Positions 19,953-55,814 of a DNA stretch of 64,000 nt are shown piece by piece (position 1 is the stretch's first letter; each line of letters begins with the position of its first letter). A program made the translations under genes and the position numbers. Source of the stretch: Lamellibrachia columna (Eukaryota > Annelida > Polychaeta > Sabellida > Siboglinidae); the NCBI GenBank assembly GCA_963662155.1, contig OY759265.1, positions 41,814,162 to 41,878,161 of the forward strand, given 5' to 3'. Below the pieces are notes generated by a model. That model saw only the letters and a program-made list of their open reading frames with translations, ran no database searches and was not told the origin of the DNA.

Positions 19953-19959
19953 GAACCAT

Positions 19960-26745: not shown

Positions 26746-27897
26746 CGCAAATATTTAACAACTTATCATGGCAGCAAAGAATGTATCGTGCCAACAGTAC
26801 CGCTTATTGATATTTAACAAAAGGACAGTGTTAATAACCATAAATACACTTCAGCAACATAATTATCGGGTCGGATAACCAACCAACTGGAGCAGCCATG
26901 TTTTTAACGTACATTACAGTAATCTTGCTATTACCTAGCTTGAGTATGTATGTATGTATGTTTGTCATGCTACTCCTCCAAGATGGCATCACACTTTCTG
27001 GGGTTCATCTACGACCCCACGGTAGGATCTTCACAATGTATTTTTTTGGAAATTCACCCTGCTATTGCCCTTTCTGTGAACAATCGAATTATCTGTTCAG
27101 TTATTATGTACAATTGTCCGCAACGCTATACAAACAATTACGTACAATTGTTCACAATGTCATGCGTTTTTTCTATGACTGTTCGAAGTTACGTAATATA
27201 AGGGCAAATCTTCACTGACTGGCAGCACCAAGTGACAAGGAATAGATGGATATTGATGTGACAAATTTTTTTTATATTGTTATCGTGACAGTCACTTATG
27301 AACTACCAAGTTATCCCATCTGGAAGATGGGCATTTGTCCTAGTTAAATTGAATGTCATTAGTAAAATAAAATATAAATTTACTCAAAGCATACATGTAA
27401 ATGCTTATAAATGTCCTAGTTTTCTACAAATGCTAACAAGATTGACACAAGCGCTAACATGGATGACACAAACAGCAATAGCAAAAACATTTAATCCTTT
27501 TTCTCTGTTGGAAGATAATTATAAATACAATTTCACGTATAACCGTTTGACTAAGAAATGATACTCTACTTTTGTCCCAGTGGAAAATGTGTCTCTGGGT
27601 TTTCATTACTGTTACCAAATGTTCTTCCTGATACCAGTAATAATCAAATGTGTCAAGGAGAGAGGGGACATAGATAGGTAGAGAGAGAGAGAGGGATGTA
27701 TTCATACGGTATGTGTTTAGTCAACACTGATTTTTACTACCATGTGAAGAAACTACTTGTGTTCGATGAAGTTAGATGTGAATCTTTTATTATACTTCGG
27801 GTCAGGCTGTGCAAAATTATTTCAACGTGGAATAATCCAACTGAGATATAATCGTAATATTGTAGTTAGAGAAAAGAACAACCGATGTGGACCTTAC

Positions 27898-30430: not shown

Positions 30431-30499
30431 GTAGGACTAATAATTGTCCAAGTCCACATGGTTCAAGAAAGGATGTGGAAACAGAGTGCACAACACGAA

Positions 30500-31432
30500 T
30501 ACTGTAATAACAAGTAACGTACTGAAATTTGCAGATGACACAAAACTGTTTAGAAAGGTTAATACTGATGGTGATAAACAACATTTACAAAACGATCTAG
30601 ACAGATTAGTGAAATGGTCTGAGAAATGGCAGATGTTGTTCAATTTTGGGAAATGTAAATGCCTACATACAGGACATGGGAAATTGGATGTACACTATAA
30701 AATAGGAGATACTGTTCTGGGTACTACTGTAAAAGAAAAGGACTTAGGAGTTACAATAAGCGCTGATATGAAAGTTTCAGAGCAGTGTGGTATTGCAGCT
30801 TCAAAGGGTAATCAAATTCTTGGATTGATTAGAAGAAACATAACATACAAGGGAAAAAAGTTAATTATACCTCTTTATAAAGCAATAGTTAGACCTCATT
30901 TAGAATACTGTATACAAGCATGGAGACCATATCGTAAGAAGGATATAGATACGCTTGAACGCATACAAAGGAGAGCAACTAAAATGATTCCAGAACTGAG
31001 AGACCTTAGTTATGAAGAACACCTGAAGGAATGTGGTTTAACAACTCTAGAGACAAGGAGGTTAAGAGGAGATCAGATTGAAGTTTTTAAGATATTGAAT
31101 GGGTATGAAAATATTAATAGAAATATGTTTTTCTCACTCAAGAAGGATAGCAGAACTAGAGGACATGAGGTAAAATTAGTAAAGGATCAATGTAGATTGG
31201 ACATCAGGAAGCACTCGTTCTCACAGAGGACAATAAATGAATGGAACAAATTGTCTACAGATTGTGTAACTGCTAGCAGCGTGAATATGTTTAAAAACAA
31301 GGTTGACACATATCTCAGGAGGGCGGGTTATAAGTATATGAACATTGTTGGACTCTCGATAAGCCAATGGCTTCCTTGTCCACTTGCCATCTGGGCCTTT
31401 GGCTTGGATGGCAAATCTTTTTAAAACCATTT
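30500..31432 (+). mobile_element. CR1-like LINE, best preserved 3' half
   Basis: 5'-truncated copy whose frame 30444-31424 is open for 326 codons. It starts inside RT at ITSNVLKFADDTKLFRKVNT (catalytic ADD intact), then LVKWSEKWQMLFNFGKCKCL, LGVTISADMKVSEQC, GLIRRNITYKGKKLIIPLYK, HLEYCIQAWRPYRKKDIDTL, ERIQRRATKMIPEL, CGLTTLETRRLRGDQIEVFK, DQCRLDIRKHSFSQRTINEW and NMFKNKVDTYLRRAGY. Useful as the reference for the other fragments. The frame before about 30500 is not CR1. Confidence 0.9.
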
Positions 31433-38500: not shown

Positions 38501-38530
38501 CTGTTCCTCGTTGTTCTCTGTTTGACGTGT
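38501..38530 (-). CDS. TRPM micro-exon, 30 nt
   Basis: TRQTENNEEQ, ten codons, phase 0, between ACTTGTTTCAG (before 38530) and GTAAGC (after 38501). It resembles the other two micro-exons in size, acidic content and final Gln (LENSDMKDDQ, LENTEKNMEDEQ). Confidence 0.7.
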
Positions 38531-38880
38531 CTGAAACAAGTTTACAAGTTCAGCTTTTTTATATTTGCTAAAGCGATAAATATAAAAAGACAGATTCTCC
38601 TTATGGTATATTTTTGGTACACCAAATCGTTCTAAACCGTATAATACTGACACTTTCTAGCAATTAGCCATTTTCAACAATAGATGATAATTATTATTTT
38701 CGGTTTGTAGTTGTTTTTTTCTCACATGCTTAATCAAGTATTTGCATTACATCTTTTCAACCATCCTTAGAAGCATGACATACACTTAGAAAATACAGTT
38801 TTAACGATATTGCTGAAAAAGCCAATATTTGATTAAACTGCGTTTATATTATGGTTAGCGCCACCACCAATTGTACTAAC

Positions 38881-38934
38881 AGAGACACCTAGCCACCGAC
38901 TCAGGACTTCGGACACCTTTTCTTGACAGTCCGT
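38881..38934 (-). CDS. TRPM exon, 54 nt, melastatin homology region
   Basis: TDCQEKVSEVLSRWLGVS, 18 codons, phase 0, between TCTGTTTGTAG (before 38934) and GTTAGT (after 38881, the same donor type as exon 34709). HEVSRVLKDFLG occupies this place in TRPM2-like proteins, which supports it. The donor choice rests on phase. Confidence 0.65.
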
Positions 38935-39369
38935 CTACAAACAGAAGCATTGTTGTTATTTAATTTAATGTAGCATCATAGCAATCATGTCATGTCACCC
39001 TGTTGTTGTCATGTTTATTGCTTTTGTGTTGTTCGTGCGTGCCAGCGTGCATGATTTTAGGATGGGTATATACAACAAATACCACACATACCAATATAGG
39101 TATATAATGTCATTCATTAAATATGTTTGTGATTCGTCAACCCAAAATAACTGATCATATTTTTGCTAGTTGAAAATATGATGAAAACGTCAATGGTTGG
39201 ATACAATCGAACAACACAACCCTTGAAATAGACGGCAAACAGGCTCACGTAAGCTTAGTGGATATAACATAATTAGCCAGTATAGGTTTGCAACTGTAAA
39301 GGTAGTATGTAAACAACATTAATCTAACATAATGTAACTAAATTTAAATTATACAATGGCGCCGTGCAA

Positions 39370-39640
39370 ACTGCGGGTAAAAGCTACTAGACACTTAATA
39401 TGCGACAGTTGTGACAACTGGGTGGTTGTGATAAGTCCTGGGGGTGCGATAAAGTGAAGGGACTAGTGGTGGAGATGGATCGACTGAGGCAGCTAGTTTT
39501 GGCGTTGGTGGGAAGGGAAGAGGTGGGTTCTGTCAGTGGTTCGGGTGGTGGGGAAATGGATGATAAAGTGGGAGAGGCGACGAGAGAGATGCTAGGAAGA
39601 GCTTACTTCAGCCTGGAAGGAGGTTGAGAGGAGGTAAGGT
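39370..39640 (+). mobile_element. Possible LINE ORF1 with PHD-like motif
   Basis: Frame reads KLRVKATRHLICDSCDNWVV and, after a shift, VKGLVVEMDRLRQLVLALVG, a zinc-finger start of the CDxCxxW type followed by a heptad-like stretch. PHD-type ORF1 proteins occur in CR1-like LINEs. It lies 180 bp before CR1 RT sequence. Confidence 0.35.
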
Positions 39641-39649
39641 GACAGGGCG

Positions 39650-39780
39650 GAAGGAGACAGGACGGAGGGAAATATGACGGAAGGTGACAGGCTGGAAGGA
39701 GACAGGAGGGGATGAAACATGAGATAAGGAGAGAGGACGGAAGGTGAAAGGACAAAATGAAAGGCTTACGAAATACAATT
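39650..39780 (+). repeat. Purine-rich GACAGGACGGAAGG repeats
   Basis: Irregular tandem words of GGAAGGTGACAGG and GGAGACAGGA types over about 130 bp. Confidence 0.6.
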
Positions 39781-39814
39781 ACAACGGAAAGCAGAATGTG
39801 ATGAAGCTGATTGG

Positions 39815-40447
39815 TGCAATATTATTACAGGATATTCAACGAAGAGGGAGTGGTTCCTTTTGGGCGAAAAGAAGCAAACATCATACCATTATTTAAAAAG
39901 GTTTCGAGAAATAAGTCAGATAATTACAGACCACTGTGTTTAAAATCAGTGATTTGTAAATTATTGGAAAGGTTAATGGTGGACTTCCTTGTTAGGCATA
40001 AATTAATAAATCCTTCTCAACATGAATTCCTAAAAGCGAGGTCATGCTTAACAAATATGTTATGCTATTTTTGAAGCAATCACTACGTGGGTAGACGAGG
40101 GATTACCAGTATATATTATATACTTAGATTTTTAGAAACCTTTCGAGTGCCACATCATAGACTACTACTTAAATTAAAAGCCCATATCAATGAATTGGAC
40201 GATAATATAACAAGTAAGGCATTGGCATTTTCAAAAACTACTACTTAAATTAAAAGCCCATATCAATGACTTGGACGATAATATAACAAGTAAGGCATTG
40301 GCATTTGCGGATGAAAAATAGCAGATGTTATTACATTTTGGGAAATGTGAGTGCTTTATGCACAAGACACAGGAACTTCGATACAAACTATATAGCATAA
40401 AAGGAAAAACAGCTAATTAAATATATATGCATAAAGCAATTGTTAGG

Positions 40448-40488
<41 letters not shown>

Positions 40489-40830
40489 CTGGAACGAATA
40501 CAAAAAAGCAACTTAAATTATTCCAGAACTGAGAAACCTTAGTCATGAAGACAGCCTAAAATAATGTGGTTTAACAACCCTAGAGACAAGGAGGTTAATA
40601 TGAGATCAAATTGAAGTTTATAAGATATTGAATTCGTATGACAATATTGATAGAAATATGTTTTCTCACTCAAGAAAGATAGCAGAACTAGATTGGATAC
40701 CAAAAAGTACTCATTCTCATAGATGACAATAAATGAATGGAACAGATTATGAAAACTCAACAGATTATCTACAGATTGTGTAAATGCTAGCAGCGTGAAT
40801 CAGGGCGGGTTGTTAAATCTTTTTAACTGG
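39815..40830 (+). mobile_element. CR1-like LINE, rearranged copy
   Basis: RT from FGRKEANIIPLFKKVSRNKS and SQHEFLKARSCLTNMLCYF to the palm, then a 76-bp tandem duplication (40161-40236, 40237-40312) of the segment coding LLLKLKAHINELDDNITSKA, with internal deletion. A (TA)n replaces about 60 bp of thumb sequence at 40452-40480. The end codes NEWNRL and SSVN. Confidence 0.8.
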
Positions 40831-41146
40831 CGATGAAACATTGGACATTCGGCAAATGATGGCAATGGCCATGCAAGTTCTGAACAGGTAATACATATGG
40901 GAAGGTACGAGAAAATGGATGAAACTGAAGCTGTATATGAGCATATGTATTACAGTTAGCTACATACGGTTGCTAAGTTTGGGTACTCTAACACTAGTAC
41001 TACGCAAATTGGGTATAAAGCGAATAAGTAATAAGAATAGGTAAAAGTGGACCCAACATGGAAATAAATAGTTTTTCAAAGTAATTGCAAAATACCATAT
41101 TTAGCAACATATCAAAAGTCCCGTCACATAAATGAAACGTGAAACT

Positions 41147-41186
41147 CTCGATAAGCCAACGGCTTTCTTGTCCACTTGCCGTCTGG
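41147..41186 (+). mobile_element. CR1-like LINE tail scrap
   Basis: ACTCTCGATAAGCCAACGGC followed by TTTCTTGTCCACTTGCC, the 3' UTR block found in all CR1 copies here. Confidence 0.7.
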
Positions 41187-41258
41187 GTCGGCAATATTGT
41201 GCTCACGCACATGCGCACAAACACATACAAATGTGCGATGCATCTATTTATATGCATA

Positions 41259-41458
41259 TGTAGCAGGGTGACACCATGTTAATCGATAGGCGTCACCACC
41301 AGCTAATTAGTATTTTGAACAGCTGACGTACCAGCCTCGTCCTGGGGTAACGCGAAAGCCGATTTTCGACAGCCACCTAGCTCAGTTGGAGCAAGTGCTG
41401 CATTTTTGATGTGTATGACTATCAACTGATAGACGACCCACCGAGACGCCCTACCACA
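41259..41458 (+). repeat. 5' LTR of the gypsy element
   Basis: 200 bp, nearly identical to 47639-47837. Positions 41365-41399 are identical to RT coding positions 44784-44818, and include TAGCTCAGTTGG, a perfect pol III A-box/tRNA D-arm consensus. Confidence 0.95.
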
Positions 41459-41460
41459 AA

Positions 41461-41478
41461 TGGTGCCAGAGGTGGGAT
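41461..41478 (+). other. Primer binding site
   Basis: TGGTGCCAGAGGTGGGAT starts 2 bp after the LTR and is complementary to a tRNA 3' end (ATCCCACCTCTGGCACCA). The AGGTGGGAT part is like PBS sequences assigned to tRNA-Leu in other gypsy elements; the tRNA identity is inference. Confidence 0.75.
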
Positions 41479-42117
41479 TTGATAACGCGACGAGACCACG
41501 AAGACGAGGCGAGGTGGCGGAGACGTAGAGTCGAGTAAGGAGCCTGGACCCTGATGACAACCTCGAGCGACATCCTGACGTCCTCGACATCCGGTCTGAC
41601 GTTTGACCGAGAGTAAGGCGACTTCCGGTCCGGCCCTGTTCGAGTGAGGACCGTAGACACTGATGACGACCTCGAGCGACTCAAGAGTGACATTTCCGGT
41701 TTAACACTATTCGGCCGCGACGATGACTAGCCCGACACGCGACGATCGAGCCACGTGACGTGCCGTGACGCTAAGTGACTTAGATCCTGACTGCATTGAC
41801 AAACGATTGAATTTTGAATTGATACCCGTTCACTGTATAATTAGGAACTGTATTGTGTATCCTGTCTGTGTAGCTATAGCAGCATTATAGAGATAGCCAG
41901 TATCAGAATTTTTTTTAGAGGGACTTTTTGACATTTGCGTGTTAGTTAGGCATGTTTTCTGAGTAAGATGTATCTGTAGTTGTGAGGGTGCAGAGTAGTC
42001 CTGTAGATACGAATGTTATTCATGGGTATAACGGGTATATAACTTTTGTTCCGTACTGGGAATTTGGTATACATCTGGGTTAATACTTAGTAGGGCAGTC
42101 GCAACTAGCAAGCAGAC
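41479..42117 (+). other. gypsy leader (5' untranslated region)
   Basis: Non-coding, GC-rich at first (CGACGA-type words up to 41780), then AT-rich. It contains TTTTAGAGGGACTTTTTGA at about 41912-41931, which recurs 3' of pol at 47530-47548. Confidence 0.7.
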
Positions 42118-43248
42118 ATGAGTATTGACGGGGCCACTGGATTTGTGCCACCCGACACGGTTCAGGGTGACTTGCAGGACCAACTGGTCACACTGCGAGA
42201 GGAGCTGTTACAGCTGCGGCTTGCAACCAATGACCGTCCACGCGTTGCGTACGTACCGCGCGAGCGGAAGGTGAAACCTTTCAGTGGACGTGGTGAGGTG
42301 ACAGTGCAGGATTTTCTTGCAGATGTCGAGAGTCTATTTAGGGCACGAGCGATGTCTGATGAGGAGCAGTGTGACTTCATGACGTCACACCTCGAAGGTG
42401 ATGCCAGACAGGAGATCCGGTTCCGGCCTGTGGAGGAGGTGCGTACCGCGACGTGTATCAGGCGGATTCTGCTGGAAGTGTTTGGCGAGAAGAGGTCGGT
42501 ATCGCAGTTGCAGGAACTCTTCTATCTTCGTAAACAGGCTGACGGGGAGGGGATCCGTAGTTTTGCAGGTGCTCTGCAGCAACTGATGGAAGCGCTTTTG
42601 CGCAAGGACGGACATGCCTGAAAGGGCCTGAAAGACCGCGTACTACGACGCGAGGTGAAGCAACAGCACCGGCTGCGACCGCAGATGAGCTTCGTGGAAC
42701 TGAGGGAAGAGGCTATTCAGTGGTCCGAGGAGGAAGAGAGGCCGCCGCAATCCAGTCGACGACAGACTACTGGTGCATTTGAGCTGGTCGCCGACGCAGG
42801 GGAAGCAGGTAACGTTACAGATCTGCAACGAGTGCTCTCAGAGTTAGAGAAACAGCAGCACGTCATCGAGGCGCTGACTGAGCGTGTGGAGAGGATGGAA
42901 GGTGTTGCGACAGGTAGGACGGGTGGACGACGGTCCAACACTCCACAGAGGCCCTGGTCGGACCAGCGACCCGCATCTGCGCCGCAGAACTTGCAGACAC
43001 GACGGCCATTTCAGGAGCGACGCGCATTTCAGGGACCCTCGATGCAGTACACACCAGACGGGCAGCCAATTTGTTACCGTTGTGGTGGAGTTGGCCACCT
43101 GGGCAGGCAGTGTCGCAATGAGGCGAGCACTGGACCACGCCGGCCCCAGACGGAGGCTTGTCCACCGGGTGTGCAGACGACGGCCCCTACGGCACACAGA
43201 CGAGAGCACCCAGACGATGTTAGAGAGAACACACATCCTTTAAACTGA
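42118..43248 (+). CDS. gag: gypsy gag with one in-frame TGA
   Basis: Frame from ATG 42118 (MSIDGATGFVPPDTV) to TGA 43246-43248, 376 codons, interrupted by a single TGA at 42619-42621. Seen: a coiled-coil-like start (LQDQLVTLREELLQLRL), the capsid pattern VKPFSGRGEVTVQDFLADVE and DARQEIRF, ELFYLRKQADGEGIRSFAGA, then after the stop LKDRVLRREVKQQHRL, an Arg/Pro-rich linker and one CCHC knuckle, CYRCGGVGHLGRQC (43072-43113). Gag forms the particle and binds RNA. The internal TGA sits in the tandem GCCTGAAAGG/GCCTGAAAGA (42616-42635), so it may come from a small duplication, or from a CGA-to-TGA change. Confidence 0.88.
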
Positions 43249-43763
43249 CGCCGCTCGTTACCAAGAGTCGGGTAGACGAGCTAGTGCGTACAGGCTCACA
43301 CGCTACCGCGCCAACTGACGCGACCGTTGGTACTTGCCCTACGGCAACTGTCTTGATGGGAGGTGTGGAGGTCAATTGCTTACTTGACACAGGTTCCCAA
43401 GTAAGTACTATCACTGAGTCTTTCTTTCGTAAGTACATTGCTCGAAACGACCGAGAGCTGGCGTCTTGCAGTTGGTTGAAGCTCACCGCTGCAAACGGTT
43501 TAGATATACCGTATGTTGGGTACGTCGAGTTGGACGTGACGACCATGGGTCAGACCATACCTGGCAGAGGTATCCTGGTTGTCTGCGATTCCCCTGATAC
43601 AGATCAGTGCGCGCATAAGAAGAGGTGTCCTGGCATTCTGAGAATGAATGTCATGGGAGAGCTTGACCTTGCTCTATGGAAACGATCCCTGAACACAGGT
43701 AGTTACAGAGCAGAGTCGGTGATGGCGTCGGTCATAGACGCGAAGCAACGGGACCGGAGATGA
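43224..43763 (+). CDS. pol: gypsy pol, protease part, ending in TGA
   Basis: Open in the -1 frame after TAG 43221. Expected to be made as a Gag-Pol fusion by frameshifting, so no own start codon is needed. Aspartic protease: NCLLDTGSQVSTITESFF with the DTGS catalytic triad (about 43384), then LTAANGLDIPYVGYVELDVT and the second hydrophobic flap-like part GRGILVVCD. It ends in RDRR-TGA (43761-43763), in the same frame as the RT ORF, so one codon separates it from the rest of pol. Confidence 0.85.
   Translation, partial: REHTSFKLTPLVTKSRVDELVRTGSHATAPTDATVGTCPTATVLMGGVEVNCLLDTGSQVSTITESFFRKYIARNDRELASCSWLKLTAANGLDIPYVGYVELDVTTMGQTIPGRGILVVCDSPDTDQCAHKKRCPGILRMNVMGELDLALWKRSLNTGSYRAESVMASVIDAKQRDRR
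43239..43280 (+). promoter_or_regulatory. -1 ribosomal frameshift signal
   Basis: T TTA AAC (43239-43245) in the gag frame immediately before the gag stop TGA. The -1 frame is open from 43224 into pol. Seven bases downstream, GCTCGT (43253-43258) can pair with ACGAGC (43276-43281). Heptamer, phase, spacer and stem fit the classical -1 signal. Function is inferred. Confidence 0.82.
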
Positions 43764-43772
43764 TTTACTCGT

Positions 43773-46700
43773 GTGGCAGGGTGGAGCGCAGTGCGAATCC
43801 CAGCGCAGTCTTGTGCCACGTTGATGGTTTCCGGTTTGCAGAGACAGGCTGATGCGACATGGGTCGTTGTAGAACCCATTGTGGGGGCACTTCCGGTGGA
43901 GGTGTCATTGTGTAGTACTTTAACTAGAGTACACCAGGGTGCTGCACCTGTGCAGGTAGTCAACACCAGCAGAGAAGACGTGTGGCTGAAGCCGAGGATG
44001 CGAATAGGTATCTATCAGACCATCGCGCACGTCAATGAAGAGGACAGAATATGTTTTGAGCGAGTCAGAGTGTCTGAGGAGTACGTGAGCAGGACTGAGG
44101 ACCGACCGCCAGGTGTAGTCGACACGCGTGAGGTACTAACCAGTACACTCGATGTCGGGCCACACGTCACCGCGGAGCAGGTTGCTCAACTGAGAGATCT
44201 CATCTCGCGGAACGAACGAGCATTCGCCCGAGATGATGACGACCTTGGCTATACAGACTTAGCCACGCACACGATAAGGACCACGACTGAGGTACCCGTA
44301 CGACAACCTTTCAGAAGGATTCCGCCTACACAGTATCAAGAGGTGAAAGAGCACATCAAGGATCTTCTGAACAGAGGTGTTATCAGAGAGAGCCATTCGG
44401 CATGGGCTTCGCCGATCGTCCTGGTCAGGAAGAAAGACGATTCGCTGCGCATGTGCGTGGACTATCGGCTGCTCAATGCGAAGACCCACCGAGACGCATT
44501 TCCGCTGCCGCGCATTGACGAGAGTTTTGACGCCATGAGCGGCGCAAACTGGTTTACCACATTGGATCTGGCTTCAGGATACCACCAGATCGCGATGTCG
44601 GAGGACGACCGAGAGAAGACGGCCTTCACCACACCTATGGGGCTGTACGAATTCAACCGTATGCCGTTCGGGCTCTGTAACAGTCCCGCGACCTTCCAGA
44701 GGTTGATGCAGAGGTGCTTTGGAGATCTGTGTTACCAGACGATACTCTGTTACCTTGATGATGTTATCATCTTCTCCAAGACGTTCGACAGCCACCTAGC
44801 TCAGTTGGAGCAAGTGCTACAGCGACTGCAGAGGATTGGACTGAAGCTGAAGACAAGCAAGTGTCACTTCTTACAGCGGGAGGTGCTATACCTAGGACAC
44901 CATGTGTCGGCCGACGGCATTGCCACAGATCCGGCAAAGATCGATGCTGTGAAAGACTGGGCCGTGCCGAACACAGTGAAACAGCTTCGCTCCTTTGTAG
45001 GATTCGCGTCCTACTACCGTAAGTATGTGCAAGGGTTCAGTATGATTGCAGCGCCGCTACACGATCTAGTGACCAGTGTCAACAAGGAAATGAAGGAGAA
45101 GGGACGGTTGAGAGGAGCCTTCAAGGACAGTTGGAGTCCAGAGTGTGACGGAGCTTTCAAGGTTTTGAAGAACGCGCTCTGCTCAGCTCCAGTTCTCGGG
45201 TATGCCCAGTACCAACGACCATTCATAGTGGAGACGGACGCCAGCCACCTGGGTCTCGGCGCTGTCCTGTCTCAAGAACAGGAAGGACGTCGTGTCGTCA
45301 TCGCGTACGCGAGTCGCAGGTTGCGATCACCCGAACGCCAGTATAGCTCGATGAAGCTAGAGATGCTAGCACTTAAGTGGGCGGTCACCACGAAGTTCCG
45401 TGCCGACCTTTACGGCGGAGAGTTCGTCATCTACACTGACAACAACCCGTTGAAGTACCTGAAGACCGCCAAGTTGGGAGCCATCGAGCAACGATGGGCA
45501 GCTGAGCTGGCCCCATTCAACTTCACGATCGAATATCGAGCTGGACGTTCAAACGGAAACGCAGATGCCTTGAGTCGACAGCAACTCGACTACGAGCCCG
45601 GGGCAACCGACTTCGACGAGGAAGACGACGTGCAGCAGATATGCGCAACATATGCATCGTGCACGCTACTCCCGCGAGAACTACGCCAACAGATAGAGAA
45701 GAATGACAGAGTACGACAAGAATTCCAGGTTGAAGTAAAGGAGATAGAGGTACAGTCAACCCAGTCACCTGCCTTCCCAGCGTTGTCACCTGAAGAACTT
45801 GCAGAGTTGCAGAGGAAAGACCCAGACATCAGCAGGTTCCTGATGTACTGGAGGGTCGGCGAGAAGCCGAAGAAGTGTGCACAGAAGGGTGTGACACAAC
45901 TGCTGAGACAGTGGCACAAGATGAGGGAAGAGAATGGGGTTTTGTACCGCAAGGTGAGAGATCCACAGGGTGGAGAGGTTAAGCAGCTAGTTCTACCGAG
46001 TGTGCTGAAGCACCGACTTCTAGAAGCGGTGCACGACAAGATGGGTCACCAGGGTGGTGATAGGACGAGCAGCCTGGCGTGGCACCGTTGTTACTGGCCA
46101 GGTATGCACAGAGAGATTGATGACTACGTGAAGAACTGTGCGAGGTGCACACTAGCGAAGATGCCGCAACAGAAGACACGCGCGCCGATGGGACACCTTC
46201 TAGCATCGCGTCCCTTAGAGGTCTTGGCGGTGGATTACACACAGTTGAAGAAGGCAGCAGATGGACGTGAGAGTGTTCTGGTACTGACAGACGTGTTCAC
46301 CAAATTCGCTTGGGCTGTACCAGCACGTGACCAGAAGGCGAACACGACGGCGCGACTATTGGTGAGAGAGTGGTTTCAGCGTTACGGAGTTCCACAGAGA
46401 ATCCATTCTGACAAAGGCCGGAATTTCGAGAGTGCGACTATTGGAGAGCTGTGCAAGCTGTACGGCATCGAGAAGTCAAGGACTACGGCATACCATCCAG
46501 AGGGGAACGGGCAGTGTGAAAGGTTTAACCGGACTTTACACGACTTGTTAAGGACCCTTCCGCCGGCACAGAAGCGAAGATGGACAGAGCATCTGCCCGA
46601 GCTTTGCAACGCCTACAATGCGACGCCACATGCGTCGACGGGATACTCGCCACACTACTTGTTGTTTGGGCGCGATCCCTGGCTGCCGATATACGCATTC

Positions 46701-47501
46701 CTAGGGCAGGAGTTGAGGGAGGACGATTGTGACAGCTCGATCGACGGATGGCTTGCCACACATCAGAAGAGACTGCAAGACGCGTATTCTCACGCAAACG
46801 AACGACTCGGCGCTGCAGCAGAAAGTCGTAACCTGCTTCACGAGAGATTGAAGATGAGTGAGCCGCTGACACTTGGTTGCAGGGTTTACCAACGCAACAG
46901 ACTACCAGGACGCAACAAAATGCAGGATGCATGGAGCCCGGAGGTGTACAAGGTAGTACGGATACCCGCGGAGCCTGGTGGACCTTACCACATCGAGAGG
47001 GCAGACGGGTTCGGCCGACCTCAGACAGTCTGCAGGAAGAACATCCAGCCAGCGGGTTCAGGAGCGATTGTTCCGACTCCAGTGGCAGTCACTCCAGAGG
47101 TCAAAGACGACGAACGCTCTGATGAGAGCTCTGACGAAGAGGAGGAGGAGGAGGATTACCTTGTCGCGATCGTTCCAGTGGTTCGTCCGACGATAGCTCC
47201 AGCTTCAGTGGTCCAGCCGATTGCTGAGGAGGTTTTGACGGGAGAGGAGATTCACGATGAGCCTACCGTGATACCGGTATCGATACCAGTACCCGCACCT
47301 AGGAGATCGGGCAGGATGCGGAAGAAGGTGGTACGCTTCGAAGAAGTCGACACGCAAGTACCTACACCGGCCCCGCGGCGATGCAACGTCATTCCTGAAC
47401 CGTGTGTGGGGGACCAATTGACCCCCATCATGATTAGTTTGTTTGTAGCGATGGCTCGCAGTGGTGTGGTCTTTTCGGGAAGCATTAACCGGGACGGTTA
47501 A
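43773..47501 (+). CDS. pol: gypsy pol: RT, RNase H, integrase
   Basis: 1242 codons, intact. RT: WASPIVLVRKKDDSLRMCVD and FTTLDLASGYHQIAM (first Asp, about residue 265), FGLCNSPATFQRLM, YLDDVIIF (about 327). Connection VLYLGHHVSADGI, FVGFASYYRKYV. RNase H: VETDASHLGLGAVLSQE (about 487), KLEMLALKWAV, YTDNNPLKYL and NADALSR. Integrase: HHCC zinc finger HDKMGHQGGDR...CARC (about 753-792), catalytic VDYTQ, HSDKG and NGQCERFNRT with exactly 35 residues between the second Asp and Glu, then a GPY/F-type GGPYHIERADGF (about 1070). The C-terminus has an acidic tract DDERSDESSDEEEEEED and a basic patch; no chromodomain. It copies element RNA and inserts the DNA. Confidence 0.95.
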   Translation: MAGWSAVRIPAQSCATLMVSGLQRQADATWVVVEPIVGALPVEVSLCSTLTRVHQGAAPVQVVNTSREDVWLKPRMRIGIYQTIAHVNEEDRICFERVRVSEEYVSRTEDRPPGVVDTREVLTSTLDVGPHVTAEQVAQLRDLISRNERAFARDDDDLGYTDLATHTIRTTTEVPVRQPFRRIPPTQYQEVKEHIKDLLNRGVIRESHSAWASPIVLVRKKDDSLRMCVDYRLLNAKTHRDAFPLPRIDESFDAMSGANWFTTLDLASGYHQIAMSEDDREKTAFTTPMGLYEFNRMPFGLCNSPATFQRLMQRCFGDLCYQTILCYLDDVIIFSKTFDSHLAQLEQVLQRLQRIGLKLKTSKCHFLQREVLYLGHHVSADGIATDPAKIDAVKDWAVPNTVKQLRSFVGFASYYRKYVQGFSMIAAPLHDLVTSVNKEMKEKGRLRGAFKDSWSPECDGAFKVLKNALCSAPVLGYAQYQRPFIVETDASHLGLGAVLSQEQEGRRVVIAYASRRLRSPERQYSSMKLEMLALKWAVTTKFRADLYGGEFVIYTDNNPLKYLKTAKLGAIEQRWAAELAPFNFTIEYRAGRSNGNADALSRQQLDYEPGATDFDEEDDVQQICATYASCTLLPRELRQQIEKNDRVRQEFQVEVKEIEVQSTQSPAFPALSPEELAELQRKDPDISRFLMYWRVGEKPKKCAQKGVTQLLRQWHKMREENGVLYRKVRDPQGGEVKQLVLPSVLKHRLLEAVHDKMGHQGGDRTSSLAWHRCYWPGMHREIDDYVKNCARCTLAKMPQQKTRAPMGHLLASRPLEVLAVDYTQLKKAADGRESVLVLTDVFTKFAWAVPARDQKANTTARLLVREWFQRYGVPQRIHSDKGRNFESATIGELCKLYGIEKSRTTAYHPEGNGQCERFNRTLHDLLRTLPPAQKRRWTEHLPELCNAYNATPHASTGYSPHYLLFGRDPWLPIYAFLGQELREDDCDSSIDGWLATHQKRLQDAYSHANERLGAAAESRNLLHERLKMSEPLTLGCRVYQRNRLPGRNKMQDAWSPEVYKVVRIPAEPGGPYHIERADGFGRPQTVCRKNIQPAGSGAIVPTPVAVTPEVKDDERSDESSDEEEEEEDYLVAIVPVVRPTIAPASVVQPIAEEVLTGEEIHDEPTVIPVSIPVPAPRRSGRMRKKVVRFEEVDTQVPTPAPRRCNVIPEPCVGDQLTPIMISLFVAMARSGVVFSGSINRDG

Positions 47502-47638
47502 GAGTTAGTTGGGGAGGACCCAGGAGGAATTTTTAGAGGGACTTTTGATACGCAGGAATTTGGGAGAACCCTAGAGTTCCAGCGGGATGTTCTTTTTTTA
47601 TATAGTAACCGGGACGGTTAAGATTTAGTTGGGGAGGA
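47486..47638 (+). other. Duplicated polypurine-tract segment
   Basis: The 33-bp block TAACCGGGACGGTTAAG...TTAGTTGGGGAGGA occurs at 47486-47518 and, with one mismatch, at 47606-47638, exactly 120 bp apart. The second copy ends in TTGGGGAGGA directly at the 3' LTR and is the polypurine tract. The pol stop codon lies in the first copy. Confidence 0.88.
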
Positions 47639-47837
47639 TGTAGCAGGGTGACACCATGTTAATCGATAGGCGTCACCACCAGCTAATTAGTATTTTGAAC
47701 AGCTGACGTACCAGCCTCGTCCTGGGGTAACGCGAAAGCCGATTTCGACAGCCACCTAGCTCAGTTGGAGCAAGTGCTGCATTTTTGATGTGTATGACTA
47801 TCAACTGATAGACGACCCACCGAGACGCCCTACCACA
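47639..47837 (+). repeat. 3' LTR of the gypsy element
   Basis: 199 bp; one T fewer than the 5' LTR in the run at 47743-47745. Followed by the CATA target duplicate. Confidence 0.95.
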
Positions 47838-47841
47838 CATA

Positions 47842-48290
47842 TGAAAGACAACACATATATCAATGTGAGTAAACCATATACACAAATTCAATGTTTGAAA
47901 GGGGTAAGCACAAATATACTTGCTCTGTGTGCTGTATGAATGTGTGTATACATACACTAACATTTTGCAATTGCAATATGTATAGGTAAAAGTCAGGCGC
48001 GGATCCAAGGGGCACGCCCCTCCTCCGTTTTGCTTGACAATTTGTTTGGAGGGATTCACTCTTATCTGGTAACTAATTTAGTCTGCGAGCCAAAGTGATT
48101 GTTTTATCGAAAGCCGGAGCAAACATGACGGACAACAATGGCCTATGTTTACACTGTTGGCTTTACTGGCACCACGTCACAAATGCAGGATAATCGAAGG
48201 TATGTCAAGCTCTACATTCATCGCTACATTCCAAGTGAGTCGGTGCATGTTTCAGAAGATAGTAGTCGGTAGGCCTCAGCGAGCTGCTCC
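47842..48290. other. Intron, no feature seen
   Basis: No coding or repeat structure that I can support, apart from scattered AT-rich sequence. Confidence 0.45.
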
Positions 48291-48299
48291 AGGGTTCTA

Positions 48300-48610
48300 C
48301 GCAGGATGTTGTCCAACTTCACTCTGGTAAAGAGCATCTTTATCGAAATCAGACAAAATGCAGATGCGGAGCACAGTGGGATCTACAAGATGGCTGAAGA
48401 GATGACCAACAGTGCTGGGACACCGATCTCGGTCCCATGTTCATGCCAAATGAAGTCAGACTGTGGAAGAAGAAATTGGATTCGCCCAAAGAAACAAAGC
48501 CCAATAATCAACAGGAAAACATTGAGTGTAACATCCAGCTCCATGTTCCCAAATTGTTTCAGTTTTTTTAATATTGGTCTCAAGTGTTGGAGTGGAAAGT
48601 ATTAATTCTA
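48300..48610 (+). mobile_element. hAT-type transposase scrap
   Basis: FIEIRQNADAEHSGIYKMAE, EMTNSAGTPISVPCSCQMKS resembles the region of DUF4371/hAT transposases that reads VRxNAD.EF..IY.EA..LA...G.....PR.C.RQ. Past 48450 the frame changes repeatedly. A weak, old fragment. Confidence 0.4.
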
Positions 48611-48959
48611 CACTAAAACTGGTGAAAAAAGTAATGCGGTGAACACCATGCATCAGGATCGCCTCATTAATCCACTGAACGCTCAGTGAACTACTAATGA
48701 TTGATGAACACTAAACATAAACAAACGTTCAATACACTAACGTTCCAACGTGTTCCTTGGTTTTGTTTTGTTCCGTGATGACGTTTTAATTTGTTTATTG
48801 TTTTATAAATTTTAATGGACTTTCAGTTTGTAAGCGCAGTGATTAGCGTAAGCTAGAAACTGGCACATGAAAGAACTTTATTTATTTTGCACATTTCATT
48901 AAAATGATGTTATAATTATCATGGTGGTTCACAAATCATCCACCAGGGCATACAAGGCG

Positions 48960-49300
48960 CTTACTTGAATAACAACACACTTAAATACGTAGAAAAGGCC
49001 AAATGTTTAGGTGTAATCATTTGTAATGATCTGAAGGATAACGAAGATACGTTAAGACATCTGTGTAGTTTCCATGCCAGGTTTAACAGTATCATTAGGA
49101 CATTTTACAGTTGGTGTAAAACTGCATCTATTTCATGCCTATTGTTGTACAATTTATTGTTCCCAACTCTGGGTAAATTTTAACAAGAGTACCTATTTGA
49201 AACTGAAAGTTGCCTACAACAACATGCATGCATTTCGCTACGTAATGCCCCCCCCCCGGAATACACCATTTCAAGAATAGTAAATATATTCCCCGGACCA
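48960..49300 (+). mobile_element. LINE RT C-terminal scrap
   Basis: LKYVEKAKCLGVIICNDLKD, RFNSIIRTFYSWCKTA, then by frameshift VKLHLFHAYCCTIYCSQLWV and LKVAYNNMHAFRY. The CLGxxIxxDxxD...L...F..YC..LYxxxLW...K..L.VAYN..FR pattern is a LINE thumb-connection domain. Poly-C run and stop at the end. Confidence 0.6.
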
Positions 49301-50057
49301 CATTGTATGGGTTGCTATGCCATCCCCCGTTGGTTAAATCCTAGATCCGCCCCTGAAAATGTAATATAGTTCATTCAAATATCAACTTGTCCAAACCGAT
49401 TTTGCACAATCGAACAAGTGTTAATATTGAACCACGAGTCTAGCCATGTTATTCTGTAAACCTAATAACCTACTCACACAACTTATGACGATAATCACTT
49501 CGGTCACAATGATCAACCAACCTGACCACATCAGTGACATCGAACAGAGACAAGCCATGACAAACCCAACCACATCGTCATATCAGATATAAACTCGGCT
49601 ACTTTTACATATCAAACCCACATACTCCAGAAGTCAGTTTATAAACCCACCAACTCTTTAACGTACTTCTGTATGGGTTTTGACAAACTACCCAACCAAA
49701 CATATAATCCTATCCAACCTAACCAAATATGATTTAACCAATTTAACTGGTTACACATACGGTATGCCACTGCACTGGGTGAAAATCGGTTCTTGTTCTC
49801 GATCCACGATGCGCGTTCGCTCACGAATATCAGAATTGTGTATGGGGATTATCAATACATTGTCGAAATTGCAAATTTTTATATTTATAATACGTATTGG
49901 AAACTTACTAATTAATAATTCATATGGTGCAACGGAGACATTTACATCGTGGTTTGAGATGGCGTTCAAGCGTTGTGTGCTTGAAGTGACATTTCATGTC
50001 AACGGCCTTGACCTGACCTATGCCAATATTTGGCAGACTTCGTTCACTGACGTAGAT

Positions 50058-50083
50058 CAGAGCTAGTGTATACACTAGCTCTG
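50058..50083. repeat. 26-bp perfect palindrome with flanking 7-bp direct repeats
   Basis: CAGAGCTAGTGTA followed directly by its complement TACACTAGCTCTG, flanked by CGTAGAT on both sides (50051-50057 and 50084-50090). It looks like two transposon ends joined with nothing between. Confidence 0.9.
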
Positions 50084-50229
50084 CGTAGATATATAACAGT
50101 GGTTGCGTCGATTTCCCGAAGAGAGGTATGCATGCAAATATGATCGCGAACTGGCAAGTGATTGAATTATATTAATAGCTTTTGGCCTGACGACTATGGA
50201 CAGTTTTTTAAATGTCGTTGACGGTGGAG

Positions 50230-50436
50230 CGTCACCGGCAGCAGAGCAGCGGTTTCGCAAAAAAATGTAACGAAAATATATTGCGAAGTAAATAAAACTA
50301 ACGGAGTAAAAAGTCGCGTTACTTTAGATAAAACTACTTCGTTACAAGTAAAAGTATATAGTCAGAATTCTACTTCGTTACACGCCAATTACTTGAAATA
50401 ACTACTCACGTATTATAACGAAGTACTTTAACCCTG
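50230..50436 (-). mobile_element. hAT-like non-autonomous element end
   Basis: Read on the minus strand from 50436: CAGGGTTAAAGTACTTCGTT, then repeated GTAACGAAGTA words. Ends of the CAGGGTT type with GTAACG-rich sub-terminal sequence are common in hAT miniature elements. The other end was not identified. Confidence 0.4.
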
Positions 50437-50574
50437 CACATACCGATGTGCTATTATTTATACTACTACTGGCTGACTTGGTATTACTATTTCTAGGTAT
50501 TGCAAAATTAAAAGTAACACAAAAAACTCCTTTCAAGAACATGGAAAATACCAAAAGAAGAATATAATGTTTAC

Positions 50575-50604
50575 CTGGTCATCTTTCATGTCCGAGTTTT
50601 CTAA
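50575..50604 (-). CDS. TRPM micro-exon, 30 nt
   Basis: LENSDMKDDQ, ten codons, phase 0, between GATTTCAG (before 50604) and GTAAAC (after 50575). Exon and intron flanks resemble 55779-55814: both have TTTTCTAACTGAAATCAATA on the plus strand at the acceptor side. Confidence 0.72.
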
Positions 50605-50639
50605 CTGAAATCAATATCAAAAAAGGTATTAGTATTATG

Positions 50640-51610
50640 CTTGTAAGTAATACCCATAAAAACAGATTCTGTTTTCTCTAACACAAATGGGATACCGTGA
50701 AATTTGTGTAGTTTAGAATTATCATGCAATATGTCATATAGTCATATGCAGCCATTTCAGTTTAATTCCATTCCCGTTACATCGGGCATATGCTGAGTAT
50801 GAATGATATCTGATATGAGTTGTATTATTTGTGATTCAATTTGGGTACCAATCATTTGGACACTCGTCATCTGGAATTTTTAAACCATCTTTTGTTGCGT
50901 TTTTACTTACGTACTAACATTTACACCTACTATGCCGTCTTTTAAATAAGCTAAGTCTTTATTGTTGGTTCTGATTGTCTCGTAAATTTTACGGAAAACA
51001 TTCTTCTTTGTTGTACCATGGTCAGAGCTATATTTTCAAATAATCATTATGCATCTCGTATACATGGGAATACAGCAAGATCAATTACTTTTGTATACAA
51101 AAACTCATTTATGGTTAGTGAAAATATGAAGTAAGTTATGGGAAAGCATTTCCCCATATTTAGGTAGGCTACGTGTCATTTCGAGAAGGAATCCATTGGA
51201 CCATAGTTGAATAACATACCCCTCATGTCATAGCTGAATAAAATTGGAGTTCAATCGACGATTTTACGATACATTAAAAGCTTCGTGACATTAGCTCACT
51301 TTCTGGAAAAATGACCACTCAATGACATTTTGACATGTCATTATTCATTCTGAAAAAATAGCTCAGTCAGTATGAACTCTGTGTAATCGTATCATTGTTT
51401 TTTATGTCAACCGTCCTAGCGTTCTGATAAAACTATGTGTATGTAATGAGGGCCACATATTCTGCAGCATTCTGGTCATTTTTACTGGATACTCTCTCAC
51501 AATGATCCATGTACTCTGATGGTGTTAGCTGTCAACGTTTTTGTCAAGATCTACCAGGATGAGATTTTGCCGCCAATCGTTACATTAATTTGTGATATGT
51601 GAACATCTGG
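50640..51610. other. Intron, no feature seen
   Basis: AT-rich; nothing recognised. Confidence 0.5.
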
Positions 51611-51615
51611 CATAC

Positions 51616-51636
51616 TGTTTTTGCTGTTGTTGTTGG

Positions 51637-51667
<31 letters not shown>

Positions 51668-51669
51668 GA
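51616..51669 (+). repeat. (TTG)n microsatellite
   Basis: About 16 imperfect TTG units. Confidence 0.9.
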
Positions 51670-51966
51670 GGGTCATAAACAGGATTCCATCAATGTGTAA
51701 CAATGGTGGTGTGTGCACTGTAGAAAGCATTACCAAATACTTTAAATGTAGCAACTACGTGCATTCTGATATTAAATATCAGTGGGAATCAAGGCATGCA
51801 TACCTGCGATAATTTGTAAACATGTCACGCAGGCGTATGAATAAGATCATAAACAATAAATTATGTGTATTATAATTTCATTTGATGTTGGGAATTACTA
51901 CATGTGTAGCATGCAAATAAGTTTCCTTTATTTGCTATTCGTGTCCTGCAAATGTGCTGCACTCAC

Positions 51967-52113
51967 CTTTGCATAGAATTCCATCATCCTCTTAGGTGTG
52001 AGGAAATCGCATAAACGGATGCCATTCTTTACTGTCATAAAGAGTTTGACAAATTCTACTTGGTTTTCCATTATGGCTGTCACCATGGGATCGTCTAGTA
52101 CCAGTTTACTTGG
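51967..52113 (-). CDS. TRPM exon: melastatin homology helices
   Basis: Exon of 147 nt (49 codons), phase 0 at both ends, between TTCCATTAG (before 52113) and GTGAGT (after 51967). It codes PSKLVLDDPMVTAIMENQVE, FVKLFMTVKNGIRLCDFLTP and KRMMEFYAK. The pattern MVxALxxxxxxFVxLFxxxGxxxxxFLTxxRLxxLY is typical of TRPM cytoplasmic repeats. Confidence 0.92.
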
Positions 52114-52289
52114 CTAATGGAAATTAAAAGAAAACATCATTTACATTCTAGTTCTTAGGTTTAGCAACAAACAATCAGCATCTACCGCTTCTCTACAAAT
52201 TCTTGGTAAGAAAGAATATTTGCAACCAAGCGTTTTTTAATGCCAAGTGAATGTAACTGAATCTGAATTTCATCAGAACCGTACAAATC

Positions 52290-55200
52290 AAGCATTGTTC
52301 AAAAAAGAAAAGTCATCACAGTCAGATACTCTAGTAGAACCAGACCAGTCAAACAGTGTCCAACTAAGAAGAGACAGAACAGTCAAACAGTGTCCAACTA
52401 AGAAGATACAGAACAGTCAAACAGTGTCCAACTAAGAAGAACCAGAACAGTCAAACAGAGTCCAACTAAGAAAATGCAGAACAGTCAAACAGTGTCCAAC
52501 TAAGAAGAACCAGACCAGTCAAACAGTGTCCAACAAAGAAGAAACAGAACAGTCAAACAGTGTCCAACTAAGAAGAGACAGAACAGTCAAACAGTGTCCA
52601 ACTAAGAAGAACCAGAACAGTCAAACAGTGTCCAACTAAGAAGAGCGAGAACAGTCAAACCGTCTCCAACTAAGAAGATACAGAACAATCAAACAGTGTC
52701 CAACTAAGAAGAGACATAACAGTCAAACATTGTACAAGTAAAAAGAGATAGATCAGTCAGTTGACTGTCCATGTAAGAAGAACCAGAACTGTCGAACAGT
52801 GTCCCACAAAAAGAATCAGACCGGTCAAACAGTGTCCAACTAAGAAGAATTAGAACTGTCAAACTGTGTCCAACTAAGAAGAGAGAGAACAGTCAAACAG
52901 TGTCCAACTAAGAAGAACCTGAACAGTCAAACAGTGTTGAACTAATAAGGGACAGAACAGTCAAATAGTATCCAACAAAGAAGAACCAGAACAGTCAAAC
53001 AGTGTCAAACTAAGAAGAACAAGGACAGTCAAACAGTGTCCAACTAAGAAGAGACAGAACAGTCAAACAGAGTCCAACTAAGAAGAACGAGAACAGTCGA
53101 ACAGTGTCCAACTAAGAAGAACCAGAACAGTTAACAGAACAGTCAAACAGTGTCCAACTAAGAAGAGCGAGGAAATGCAAACCATCTCCAACTTAGTGGA
53201 ACCAAAGCAGTCAAACATTGTACAAGTAAAAAGAGATAGACCAGTCAGTTGACTGTCCATGTAAGAAGAACCAGAACTGTCGAACAGTGTCCCACAAAAA
53301 GAATCAGAACGGTCAAACAGTGTCCAACTAAGAAGAACTAGAACTGTCAAACTGTGTCCAACTAAGAAGAGACAGAACAGTCGAACAGTGTCCAACTAAG
53401 AAGAGACAGACCAGTCGAACAGTGTCCAACTAAGAAGATACAGAACAATCAAATAGTGTCCAACTAAGAAGAGACAGAACAGTCAAACAGTGTCCAACTA
53501 AGTAGAGACAGAACAGTGATACAGTGTCCAACTAAGAAGAGACAGAACAGTCAAACAGTGTCCAACAAAGAAGAAACAGAACAGTCAAACAGTGTCCAAC
53601 TAAGAAGAAACAGAACAGTCAAACAGTGTCCAACTAAGAAGAACTAGAACTGTCAAACTGTGTCCAAATAAGAAGAGATAGAACAGTCGAACAGTGTCCA
53701 ACTAAGAAGAGACAGAACAGTCAAACAGTGTCCAACTAAGAAGAGACAGACCAGTCGAACAGTGTCCAACTAAGAAGAGACAAAACAGTCGAACAGTGTC
53801 CAACTAGGAAGAAACAGAACAATCGAACAGTGTCCAACTAGGAAGAAACAGAACAGTCGAACAGTGTCCAACTAAGAAGAACCAGAACAGTCAAACAGTG
53901 CCCAACTAAGGAGAACCAGAACAGTCAAACACTGTCCAAATAAGAAGAGCCAGAACAGTCGAACAGTGTCCAACTAAGAAGAACTAGAACTGTCAAACTG
54001 CGTCCAACTAAGAAGAGACCGAACAGTGTCCAACTAAGAAGAGACAGAATAGTCAAACAGTGTCCAACTAAGAAGAGACAAAACAGTGTCCAACTAAGAA
54101 GAGACAGAACAGTCAAACAGTGTCCAACTAAGAAGAGACAGAACAATCAAATAGTGTCCATCTAAGAAGAGACAGAACAGTCAAACAGTGTCCAACTAAG
54201 AAGAGACAAAACAGTGTCCAACTAAGAAGAGACAGAACAGTCAAACAGTGTCCAACTAAGAGGAGGCAGAACAATCAAACAGTGTCCAACTAAGAAGAGA
54301 CAAAACAGTCAAACAGTGTCCAACTAAGAAGAGACAAAACAGTGTCCAACTAAGAAGAGACAGAACAGTCAAACAGTGTCCAACTAAGAAGAGACAGAAC
54401 AGTCAAACAGTGTCCAACTAAGAAGAGACAGACCAGTCGAACAGTGTCCAACTAAGAAGAGACAAAACAGTGGAACAGTGTCCATCTAGGAAGAAACAGA
54501 ACAGTCGAACAGTGTCCAACTAAGAAGAGACAGACCAGTCGAACAGTGTCCAACTAGGAAGAAACAGAACAGTCAAACAGTGTCCAACTAAGGAGAGACA
54601 GAACAGTCAAACAGTGTCCAACTAAAAAGAGACAGACCAGTCGAACAGTGTCCAACTAAGAAGAGACAAAACAGTCGAACAGTGTCCAACTAGGAAGAAA
54701 CAGAACAGTCGAACAGTGTCCAACTAAGAAGAACCAGAACAGTCAAACAGTGTCCAACTAAGGAGAACCAGAACAGTCAAACACTGTCCAAATAAGAAGA
54801 GCCAGAACAGTCGAATAGTGTCCAACTAAGAAGAGACCGAACAGTGTCCAACTAAGAAGAGACAGAACAGTCGAACAGTGTCCAACTAAGAAGAGACAAA
54901 ACAGTCAAACAGTGTCCAACTAGGCAGAGACAGAACAGTCGAACAGTGTCCAACTAAGAAGAGACAGAACAGTCGAACAGTGTCCAACTAAGAAGAACCA
55001 GAACAGTCAAACAGTGTCCAACTAAGGAGAACCAGAACAGTCAAACAGTGTCCAACTAAGAAGAGCTAGAACAGTCGAACAATGTCCAACTAAGAAGAAC
55101 TAGAACTGTCAAACTGTGTCCAACTAAGAAGAGACCGGACAGTGTCCAACTAAGAAGAGACAGAACAGTCAAACACTGTCCAACTAAAAAGAGCCAGAAA

Positions 55201-55375
55201 AGTCAAACCGTCTCCAATTTAGTGGAACCAAAGCAGACCAACAGTGTACAAGTAAGACGACATAGACCAGTCAGTTTACTGTCCATGTAAAAAGAACCAG
55301 AACTGTCGAATAGTGTCCCACAAAAAGAACCAGAACGGTCAAACAGTGTCCAACAAAGACGAACCAGAACGTTCA
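52290..55375. repeat. 34-bp minisatellite, about 90 copies
   Basis: Unit AGTCAAACAGTGTCCAACTA plus AGAAGAGACAGAAC. Variant units include AACCAG for GACAG, GTCGAAC for GTCAAAC, and shortened 24-bp units lacking the first part. A longer variant block (about 130 bp, with CAGTCAGTTGACTGTCCATG) occurs at 52720, 53215 and 55235, so part of the array was duplicated in larger pieces. Because 34 is not a multiple of three, the long minus-strand frames in it are by-products. It fills the intron between TRPM exons 52113 and 55779. Confidence 0.95.
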
Positions 55376-55778
55376 GCCAGCCACATACTCATTGGTGCAG
55401 GCTATCACGTTATTTTCAAAGATAAGAGTTTGTATGTAATATGTGAAGATTTGCTATGTTGTTCATTTTGTTGGATTAAGCTGAATTCCTGCCCGGAATT
55501 CAGCTTACTAAAAAGAATTCAATCCACCACCCTAGTAACTTAAACAAGAATCGTTGATCGCCCACCAACCAAATTATCTAATCATCTACACATAAATGTA
55601 ATCACCTGTTCGTATTAACCATGATACTACTTTCAACAAACTACCAATCCAAACATATATCAACCCTACAACCGAACTAATTAGTTGTATTTACAGCCAA
55701 CCAAACGAACTATACATGTAGTCAAAATACTTGTTTCAAATCCGTGGGAAAATATCAAGAGAAGTATATTTTGTTCAC

Positions 55779-55814
55779 CTGTTCATCTTCCATGTTCTTC
55801 TCTGTGTTTTCTAA
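55779..55814 (-). CDS. TRPM micro-exon, 36 nt
   Basis: LENTEKNMEDEQ, twelve codons, phase 0, between GATTTCAG (before 55814) and GTGAAC (after 55779). It lies between KNL of exon 56248 and PSKLVL of exon 52113, where TRPM2-like proteins have a variable acidic loop. Confidence 0.75.

Follow-up and report, generated by a model that had tools for sequence, protein, structure and literature searches.

The 64,000-nucleotide (nt) stretch of the Lamellibrachia columna genome analyzed here (contig OY759265.1, positions 41,814,162 to 41,878,161; called "the window" below) carries on its minus strand what is, by its sequence matches, the middle part of a TRPM2-like channel gene, and three short exons, A, B, and C, lie in the part of that gene that encodes the cytosolic region. 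These are probably genuine coding exons of a vestimentiferan channel gene that has been amplified in tandem, and the default transcript would include all three. Exon A (36 nt, LENTEKNMEDEQ) occupies positions 55814-55779, exon B (30 nt, LENSDMKDDQ) 50604-50575, and exon C (30 nt, TRQTENNEEQ) 38530-38501. As a preliminary description of this DNA had claimed, each is open in phase 0 and ends in CAG/GT (glutamine before the donor), and a 147-nt exon that is phase 0 at both ends (E2, 52113-51967, PSKLVLDD...EFYAK) lies between A and B. At 30-36 nt the three fall under the loose size limit for microexons (51 nt) and exceed the strict one (27 nt).

The short exons are set among larger ones that were recognized by similarity to TRPM proteins and by their splice sites. 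Upstream of A is E1 (56248-56169, 80 nt, found by tblastn against TRPM relatives), which ends in phase 0 with ...QLKLALAWNRIDAAKNL. Between B and C is E3 (38934-38881, 54 nt, TDCQEKVSEVLSRWLGVS; phase 0 at both ends, donor GTTAGT), which resembles the linker-helix segment of siboglinid TRPM proteins, and C is followed by E4 (37287-37129, 159 nt, SCNVFYMLKKK...LFLWAIIRRHLDLAKLFWAEIK), also phase 0 at both ends. The preliminary description had the start of E3 right (38934) but gave neither its end nor the position at which the next exon starts (37287), and it did not include a further 38-nt exon (32349-32312) or the gene array described below.

The assignment of the gene to the TRPM family holds up well. 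Spliced together, the window exons match TRPM channels, with best E values of 1.6e-7 (a TRPM5 chain) and 2.5e-7 (human TRPM2). The TRPM2-like cytosolic domain PF25508 scores 39 bits in a short piece, 130.5 bits in a 644-residue assembly, and 134.4 bits in E1-E6 (cut-off 27), the ion-channel domain PF00520 scores 42.3 bits in the 644-residue assembly (cut-off 25), and exons E7-E12 match S1-S6 and the TRP helix of TRPM channels. The N-terminal SLOG/LSDAT domain was not found within the window; the related Lamellibrachia satsuma prediction P0029 carries PF18139 and PF18171. A NUDT9-H domain would be encoded beyond the window. The relatives of the gene are several L. satsuma predictions, one from Ridgeia piscesae, and mollusc TRPM2-like proteins; P0001-P0030 denote protein predictions of relatives, and P1-P6 denote the L. 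columna paralogs, P1 being the window gene. The L. satsuma protein P0025 and the window gene differ by four residues across E4-E6, and a window intron (39720-39607) is matched at 97% by the initial 38 residues of P0025, so the window is a close relative.

Exons A and B share both their coding sequence and their intron flanks through a duplication, as had been proposed. A blastn alignment pairs 55828-55723 (exon A with adjoining intron on both sides) with 50618-50520 around exon B at 77.4% identity over 106 nt (E 9.7e-18); it starts 14 nt before the acceptor and extends to ~56 nt after the donor. A 23-nt acceptor motif, searched with up to three mismatches, occurs within the window only at A and B (0 expected). 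Exon C had been described as a third member of this set, and that part of the claim was not confirmed: its resemblance to A (p ~0.014) and B (p ~0.012) is not significant and owes something to shared splice consensus, and a permissive alignment of C with A and B was discounted because shuffled sequence aligned well too. Homology of exon and flanking intron above chance, the mark of a duplicated exon, was thus found for A against B and not for C against either.

Neither splice score nor position alone would justify calling these exons. With splice-site scoring trained on eleven other exons of the window gene, C ranks 9th, A 22nd, and B 33rd among the 425 open phase-0 AG..GT segments of 24-45 nt in 30 kb, and none of them stands out. 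They are credible because they recur. When the genome (879,693,805 bases in 30 contigs) was searched with the 116-nt A sequence, by a method that skips very common words and scores the best candidates only, it gave 12 matches, six to A and six to B, all of them in one TRPM array. The introns of the gene are full of repeats and retrotransposon pieces, and the A/B similarity might in principle come from a mobile repeat that lies beside exons by chance, but the confinement to the array of every match in this search, which skips very common words, speaks against a dispersed repeat as its source, and we regard this explanation as exceedingly improbable.

The array comprises six TRPM2-like genes at 41.81-42.36 Mb of the window's chromosome (C5), each of them on the minus strand. 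E2 is found six times on this chromosome, spanning ~0.49 Mb: in the window (P1) and at 41.947 (P2), 42.071 (P3), 42.165 (P4), 42.276 (P5), and 42.353 Mb (P6). In the array sequence compared (200 kb beside the window and some smaller stretches), the order A-E2-B-E3-C is the same in every paralog, and E4 comes next wherever it is covered. A, B, C, and E3 recur in all six paralogs, open, in frame, and with their AG and GT kept; with extra copies counted, this is true, and the length divisible by three, for 6/6 copies of A, 6/6 of B, 8/8 of C, and 8/8 of E3, where the extraction patterns required AG and GT and similarity searches showed no further, failing copy. The extra copies belong to a second block, present in P2 (C5 41940296-41941377) and P4 (C5 ~42.158-42.159 Mb), in which E3 and C are followed by the first part of E4. 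That the same short exons recur between the same larger exons across the array suggests that they are probably real coding pieces rather than noise.

Their peptides vary among the paralogs. Exon A reads LENTEKNMEDEQ in P1, FENTNNMKVGQ in P2 and P4, and FENKNNTEDEQ in P3, P5, and P6, whereas B reads LENSDMKDDQ in P1 and LENMENNMEDDQ in P2-P6, which have a 36-nt form identical over the 36 nt. Exon C is TRQTENNEEQ in P1 and in the copies P2b and P4b, TRQTESNEEQ in P3, and TCQTENNEEQ in P5 and P6; the extra copies P2a and P4a read TCPTENEEK and TCQTDNSEKK. The short exons carry indels measuring 3 nt in A, 6 nt in B, and 3 nt in C of P2a; the flanks also carry 1-nt indels. The 13 longer exon peptides are stop-free in P1 and P3 (13/13 in each), as are 11/13 in P2, where E5 and E6 were not found and some of the sequence is N; P4, P5, and P6 were examined over pieces of E1-E6 only. 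Some paralogs may be recent duplicates or leftover haplotypes, since P5 equals P6 in the pieces compared and P2 equals P4 in A, B, and E2; the difference between P2a and P4a shows, however, that these two genes are distinct sequences.

The sister species gives a second view of these junctions. L. satsuma gene models carry one A, one B, and one C where the window has them: P0030 joins an A-type exon to E1 (...AAKNL/LENMEKNMEDEQ), P0029 joins a B-type exon to E2 (...DFYAK/LENTENNMEDDQ), and P0003 joins C, with an identical peptide, to E4 (TRQTENNEEQ/SRNV). The duplication that gave rise to A and B is probably older than the array, since both are present in 6/6 paralogs and at the same junctions in the L. 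satsuma models. Coding use of A, B, and C in the window gene is likewise probable, and ordinary inclusion by default is the most likely form of it.

A number of observations weigh against that reading. Among the L. satsuma models that reach the slot in question, A is present in one of three (P0029 joins E1 to E2, and P0001 reads through), B in one of two, and C in one of two; P0001 is without A and B, P0025 is without C and starts with intron sequence, E3 is missing from all three models that extend to its position (P0003, P0025, P0029), no model holds two of the short exons together, and the models themselves are gene predictions. The splice scores of A and B are weak. Comparison with the near flanks (40 nt upstream and 33 nt downstream; p values uncorrected) showed no base-level purifying selection on A, B, or C in most paralog pairs (p >0.1), and all base changes that separate B of P1 from the other paralogs are non-synonymous. 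C leans toward higher conservation than its near flanks only in the pairs P1-P2b and P2b-P4b (p 0.031); a value of 0.004 obtained earlier for P1-P2b was given up because the flank was partly non-aligning, and the near-flank recount gave 0.031. Pairs of B with P3 give p 0.004-0.042 with a flank inflated by gap misalignment, and some further short-exon pairs lean in the opposite direction. An apparent excess of change in A over its flanks (p 0.043, 0.072, and 0.525 for the three pairs of distinct copies) is not claimed here in view of a recount (0.105, 0.185, and 0.759).

Such findings are what one might expect if A and B were intronic leftovers of an old internal duplication, not in use, with frames that are open by luck: the splice scores are weak, the exons show no clear excess of conservation over their near flanks, A, B, or C is absent from four of the seven L. 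satsuma slots, and divergence between paralogs is low, so that open frames survive easily. Yet frame and splice sites are kept in 6/6 paralogs, and the gene models use A, B, and C at exact junctions. In addition, a crude simulation that scattered the observed changes (typed substitution counts, no tree) left all copies usable in 0.5% of runs, a figure that is overstated as evidence because shared ancestry is ignored. We therefore hold the remnant explanation to be quite unlikely, and genuine coding exons included by default remain the reading that we prefer, although the near-flank recount made this reading somewhat less likely and the remnant explanation somewhat more so.

The second E3-C blocks show a different pattern of change. 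Between P2a and P4a, E3 differs at 10/54 exon sites against 0/73 near-flank sites, and C at 4/27 sites against 1/73 (p 0.018); this excess, which ends at the exon borders, could be due to diversifying selection or to gene conversion. In E2 the non-synonymous and synonymous divergences per site are 0.15 and 0.13 for P1-P2 and 0.14 and 0.17 for P1-P5 (the exception in direction), and P2-P5 shows nine non-synonymous changes and one synonymous change. The corresponding values are 0.04-0.06 and 0.05-0.11 in the pore exon E10, and 0.05 and 0.12 in E6. Non-synonymous divergence in E2 is thus mostly equal to or above synonymous divergence, unlike that of E10, and this cytosolic exon changes more rapidly than the pore.

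Predicted structures place the short exons near loops. In the model of P0029 (16-row alignment, mean predicted local distance difference test score [pLDDT] 70), the joint of E1 and E2 at residues 192/193 lies in a loop that has helix 186-190 on one side and helix 199-207 on the other. B begins close to where helix 232-248 ends and extends into a stretch with pLDDT <50. The model of the canonical L. satsuma protein P0028 has, in the region of B, E3, and C, a helix (51-60), a short loop, and a second helix (68-79), all at middling confidence. Judging from these models, A, B, and C would be located within or next to loops that connect helices of the cytosolic domain, before the membrane part, in what we take to be the melastatin homology region 3 (MHR3) of TRPM terminology.

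The preliminary description had called the short exons acidic linkers. This is correct for the window gene, in which a hand count gives A, B, and C net charges of -4, -3, and -2, but the charge is not fixed, as A of P2 and P4 has a net charge of 0. The first loop has 18 residues and a charge of -3 with A, and 6 residues and a charge of +1 without it. In ten relatives outside the window family the same loop has 13-17 residues and a charge of -3 to 0, and it is acidic in nine of them; these loops were parsed by regular expression, with 7 of the 19 anchor-motif proteins failing and left out, the own-family rows P0001 and P0029 also left out, and P0016 and P0021 representing one species with the same loop. 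Since the corresponding loop is acidic in nine of ten TRPM relatives too, acidity is not the novelty here. Ten in-frame isoforms were also scored against PF25508; full inclusion scores best (134.4 bits, the others 129.1-132.8) and lies above 10/10 shuffled-insert controls (127.9-131.9 bits), which leans slightly toward default inclusion, and on the other side of the balance the margin is small (5 bits) and the controls overlap the partial isoforms.

These observations would fit the following history. One short exon, together with intron sequence reaching ~14 nt upstream and ~56 nt downstream of it, would have been copied across E2 in a single ancestral gene to give A and B, and this gene would later have been multiplied into the array of six. 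Each short exon would encode 9-12 residues in a loop or next to one: A where E1 meets E2, B where E2 meets E3, and C where E3 meets E4. The default transcript would include all three, and they would substitute for the linkers found there in other TRPM proteins. Skipping, foremost of A, would be an optional, frame-neutral event.

The five exons A, E2, B, E3, and C follow one another directly, and each is in phase 0 at both ends and has a length divisible by three, so that alternative inclusion is possible; the earlier statement that A, B, and C can each be skipped without a change of frame is accurate. The preliminary description went further and proposed that tissue-specific combinations give channels with different charged loops; in this form A, B, and C, together with E3, would be regulated cassette exons. 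The weak donors of A (gtgaac) and B (gtaaac) and the joining of E1 to E2 without A in P0029 speak for such regulation, and so does a human precedent in the same linker, the natural TRPM2 variant TRPM2-deltaN, which is described in the available parts of two reports as being without residues 538-557 (PMC10341991, PMC5039510) and in those of a third as having lost the response to ADP-ribose and H2O2 (PMC6583685). In alignment with human TRPM2, this in-frame loss of 20 residues falls between human residues 455-529, which are E2-like, and the LFLWAI helix (621 on), that is, in the linker to which B, E3, and C belong. By analogy TRPM2-deltaN is the nearest known case; it differs in that it is one deleted stretch and in that it is from a vertebrate, and we know of no duplicated short exons there. 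The better fit of full inclusion to PF25508 and the fact that P0029 is a gene prediction that may simply miss A count against regulated inclusion, which we see as possible but doubtful.

A further explanation concerns E3 and E4. When 644 open pieces were compared with the canonical siboglinid TRPM linker-helix, E3 ranked first and the start of E4 second, and a second E3-C block, which includes part of E4, is present in P2 and P4; B+E3 and C+E4 might then be two copies of one linker-plus-helix unit that are used as alternatives. However, no resemblance is seen between E3 and the start of E4 (p 0.86), and mollusc TRPM seems to have two successive helical stretches here that these two exons could represent. 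The two may encode successive helices, in line with the mollusc alignment, or be alternatives; that B+E3 and C+E4 are copies of one unit used as alternatives appears rather unlikely. A more extended and unlikely proposal is that A, E2, B, E3, and C form a splice-tunable module in the cytosolic gating region, such that tissue combinations, multiplied by the six genes and the second E3-C blocks, would yield differently charged linkers, with the second block diversifying exon by exon.

The remaining exons were mapped by similarity to relatives and by splice sites, so that minus-strand exons of the gene are now placed between 56248 and 1866, the outermost two of which point to more exons beyond this range. 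Downstream of E4 are E5 (35353-35250), E6 (34934-34709), and E6b (33203-33117, VFFSVFVPFLFLSIKFRRDAWKKNNPNLK), followed by a further short exon, D (32349-32312, 38 nt, GTHVDGGTKSQP), which was identified by a 92% match to P0003 and by its splice sites and is also found in P2 and P3, with an identical peptide in P2. The membrane part is encoded by E7 (31614-31533, start of S1), E8 (28023-27898, S1-S2), E9 (23021-22803, S2-S4), E10 (20835-20661, S5 and pore), and E11 (15559-15421, S6), and E12 (2065-1866) encodes the TRP helix and has a donor that points to exons past the window.

Several elements were noted in the introns. The intron between B and E3 holds an element at 41258-47840 with a 1245-residue reverse-transcriptase-like open frame on the plus strand (read by eye) and near-identical ~200-nt repeats at its two ends (41258-41461 and 47638-47840), and it looks like a young long terminal repeat retrotransposon. 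An array of a 34-nt tandem repeat, with 72 register copies, extends from 52217 upward in the intron between A and E2. Inspection by eye also found open frames like those of the endonuclease and reverse transcriptase of long interspersed nuclear elements in other introns, at 23709-26762 and 30444-31424, and retroelement open-frame fragments at 16954-20081 in the intron between E10 and E11.

Other known systems share some features with this arrangement. In the TRPM3 exon 13 (ICF) variant, according to the accessible portions of the reports, the spliced stretch is given as the last 54 nt of exon 13 (PMC4793508) or as ten residues, with a non-functional channel (PMC6583685). It is similar in that a short stretch ahead of the membrane part is alternatively spliced and different in that this stretch is part of an exon, not a separate short exon, of a gene in the TRPM alpha clade. 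Tandem mutually exclusive exons, as outlined in part of PMC9741552, are likewise exons duplicated with their flanks inside a gene and encode homologous peptides. Those are adjacent homologous exons, whereas A and B are separated by the 147-nt E2 in 6/6 paralogs and both could be included. Troponin T has several neighboring alternatively spliced exons in one gene (TNNT3 exons 4-8, as far as the sources reach). Those exons are short and acidic. The protein is unrelated, and alternative splicing has been demonstrated there, whereas here it is a possibility raised by the sequence. Among the matches listed for the literature on TRPM splicing, exon duplication, and tubeworm genomes, there was no account of this short-exon arrangement, and the available parts of a TRPM family paper (PMC13143021) and of PMC13402157 contain nothing on these exons.

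If they are used, A, B, C, and E3 would place the loop length and charge of the TRPM coupling region under the control of splicing, and the linker so controlled would be the same one that is shortened in human TRPM2-deltaN. The comparison of paralogs recovers short exons that gene prediction in the sister species caught only partly. The array offers natural linker variants beside a better conserved pore, and it could serve as a test of whether this region sets the response of these channels to ligand or temperature.

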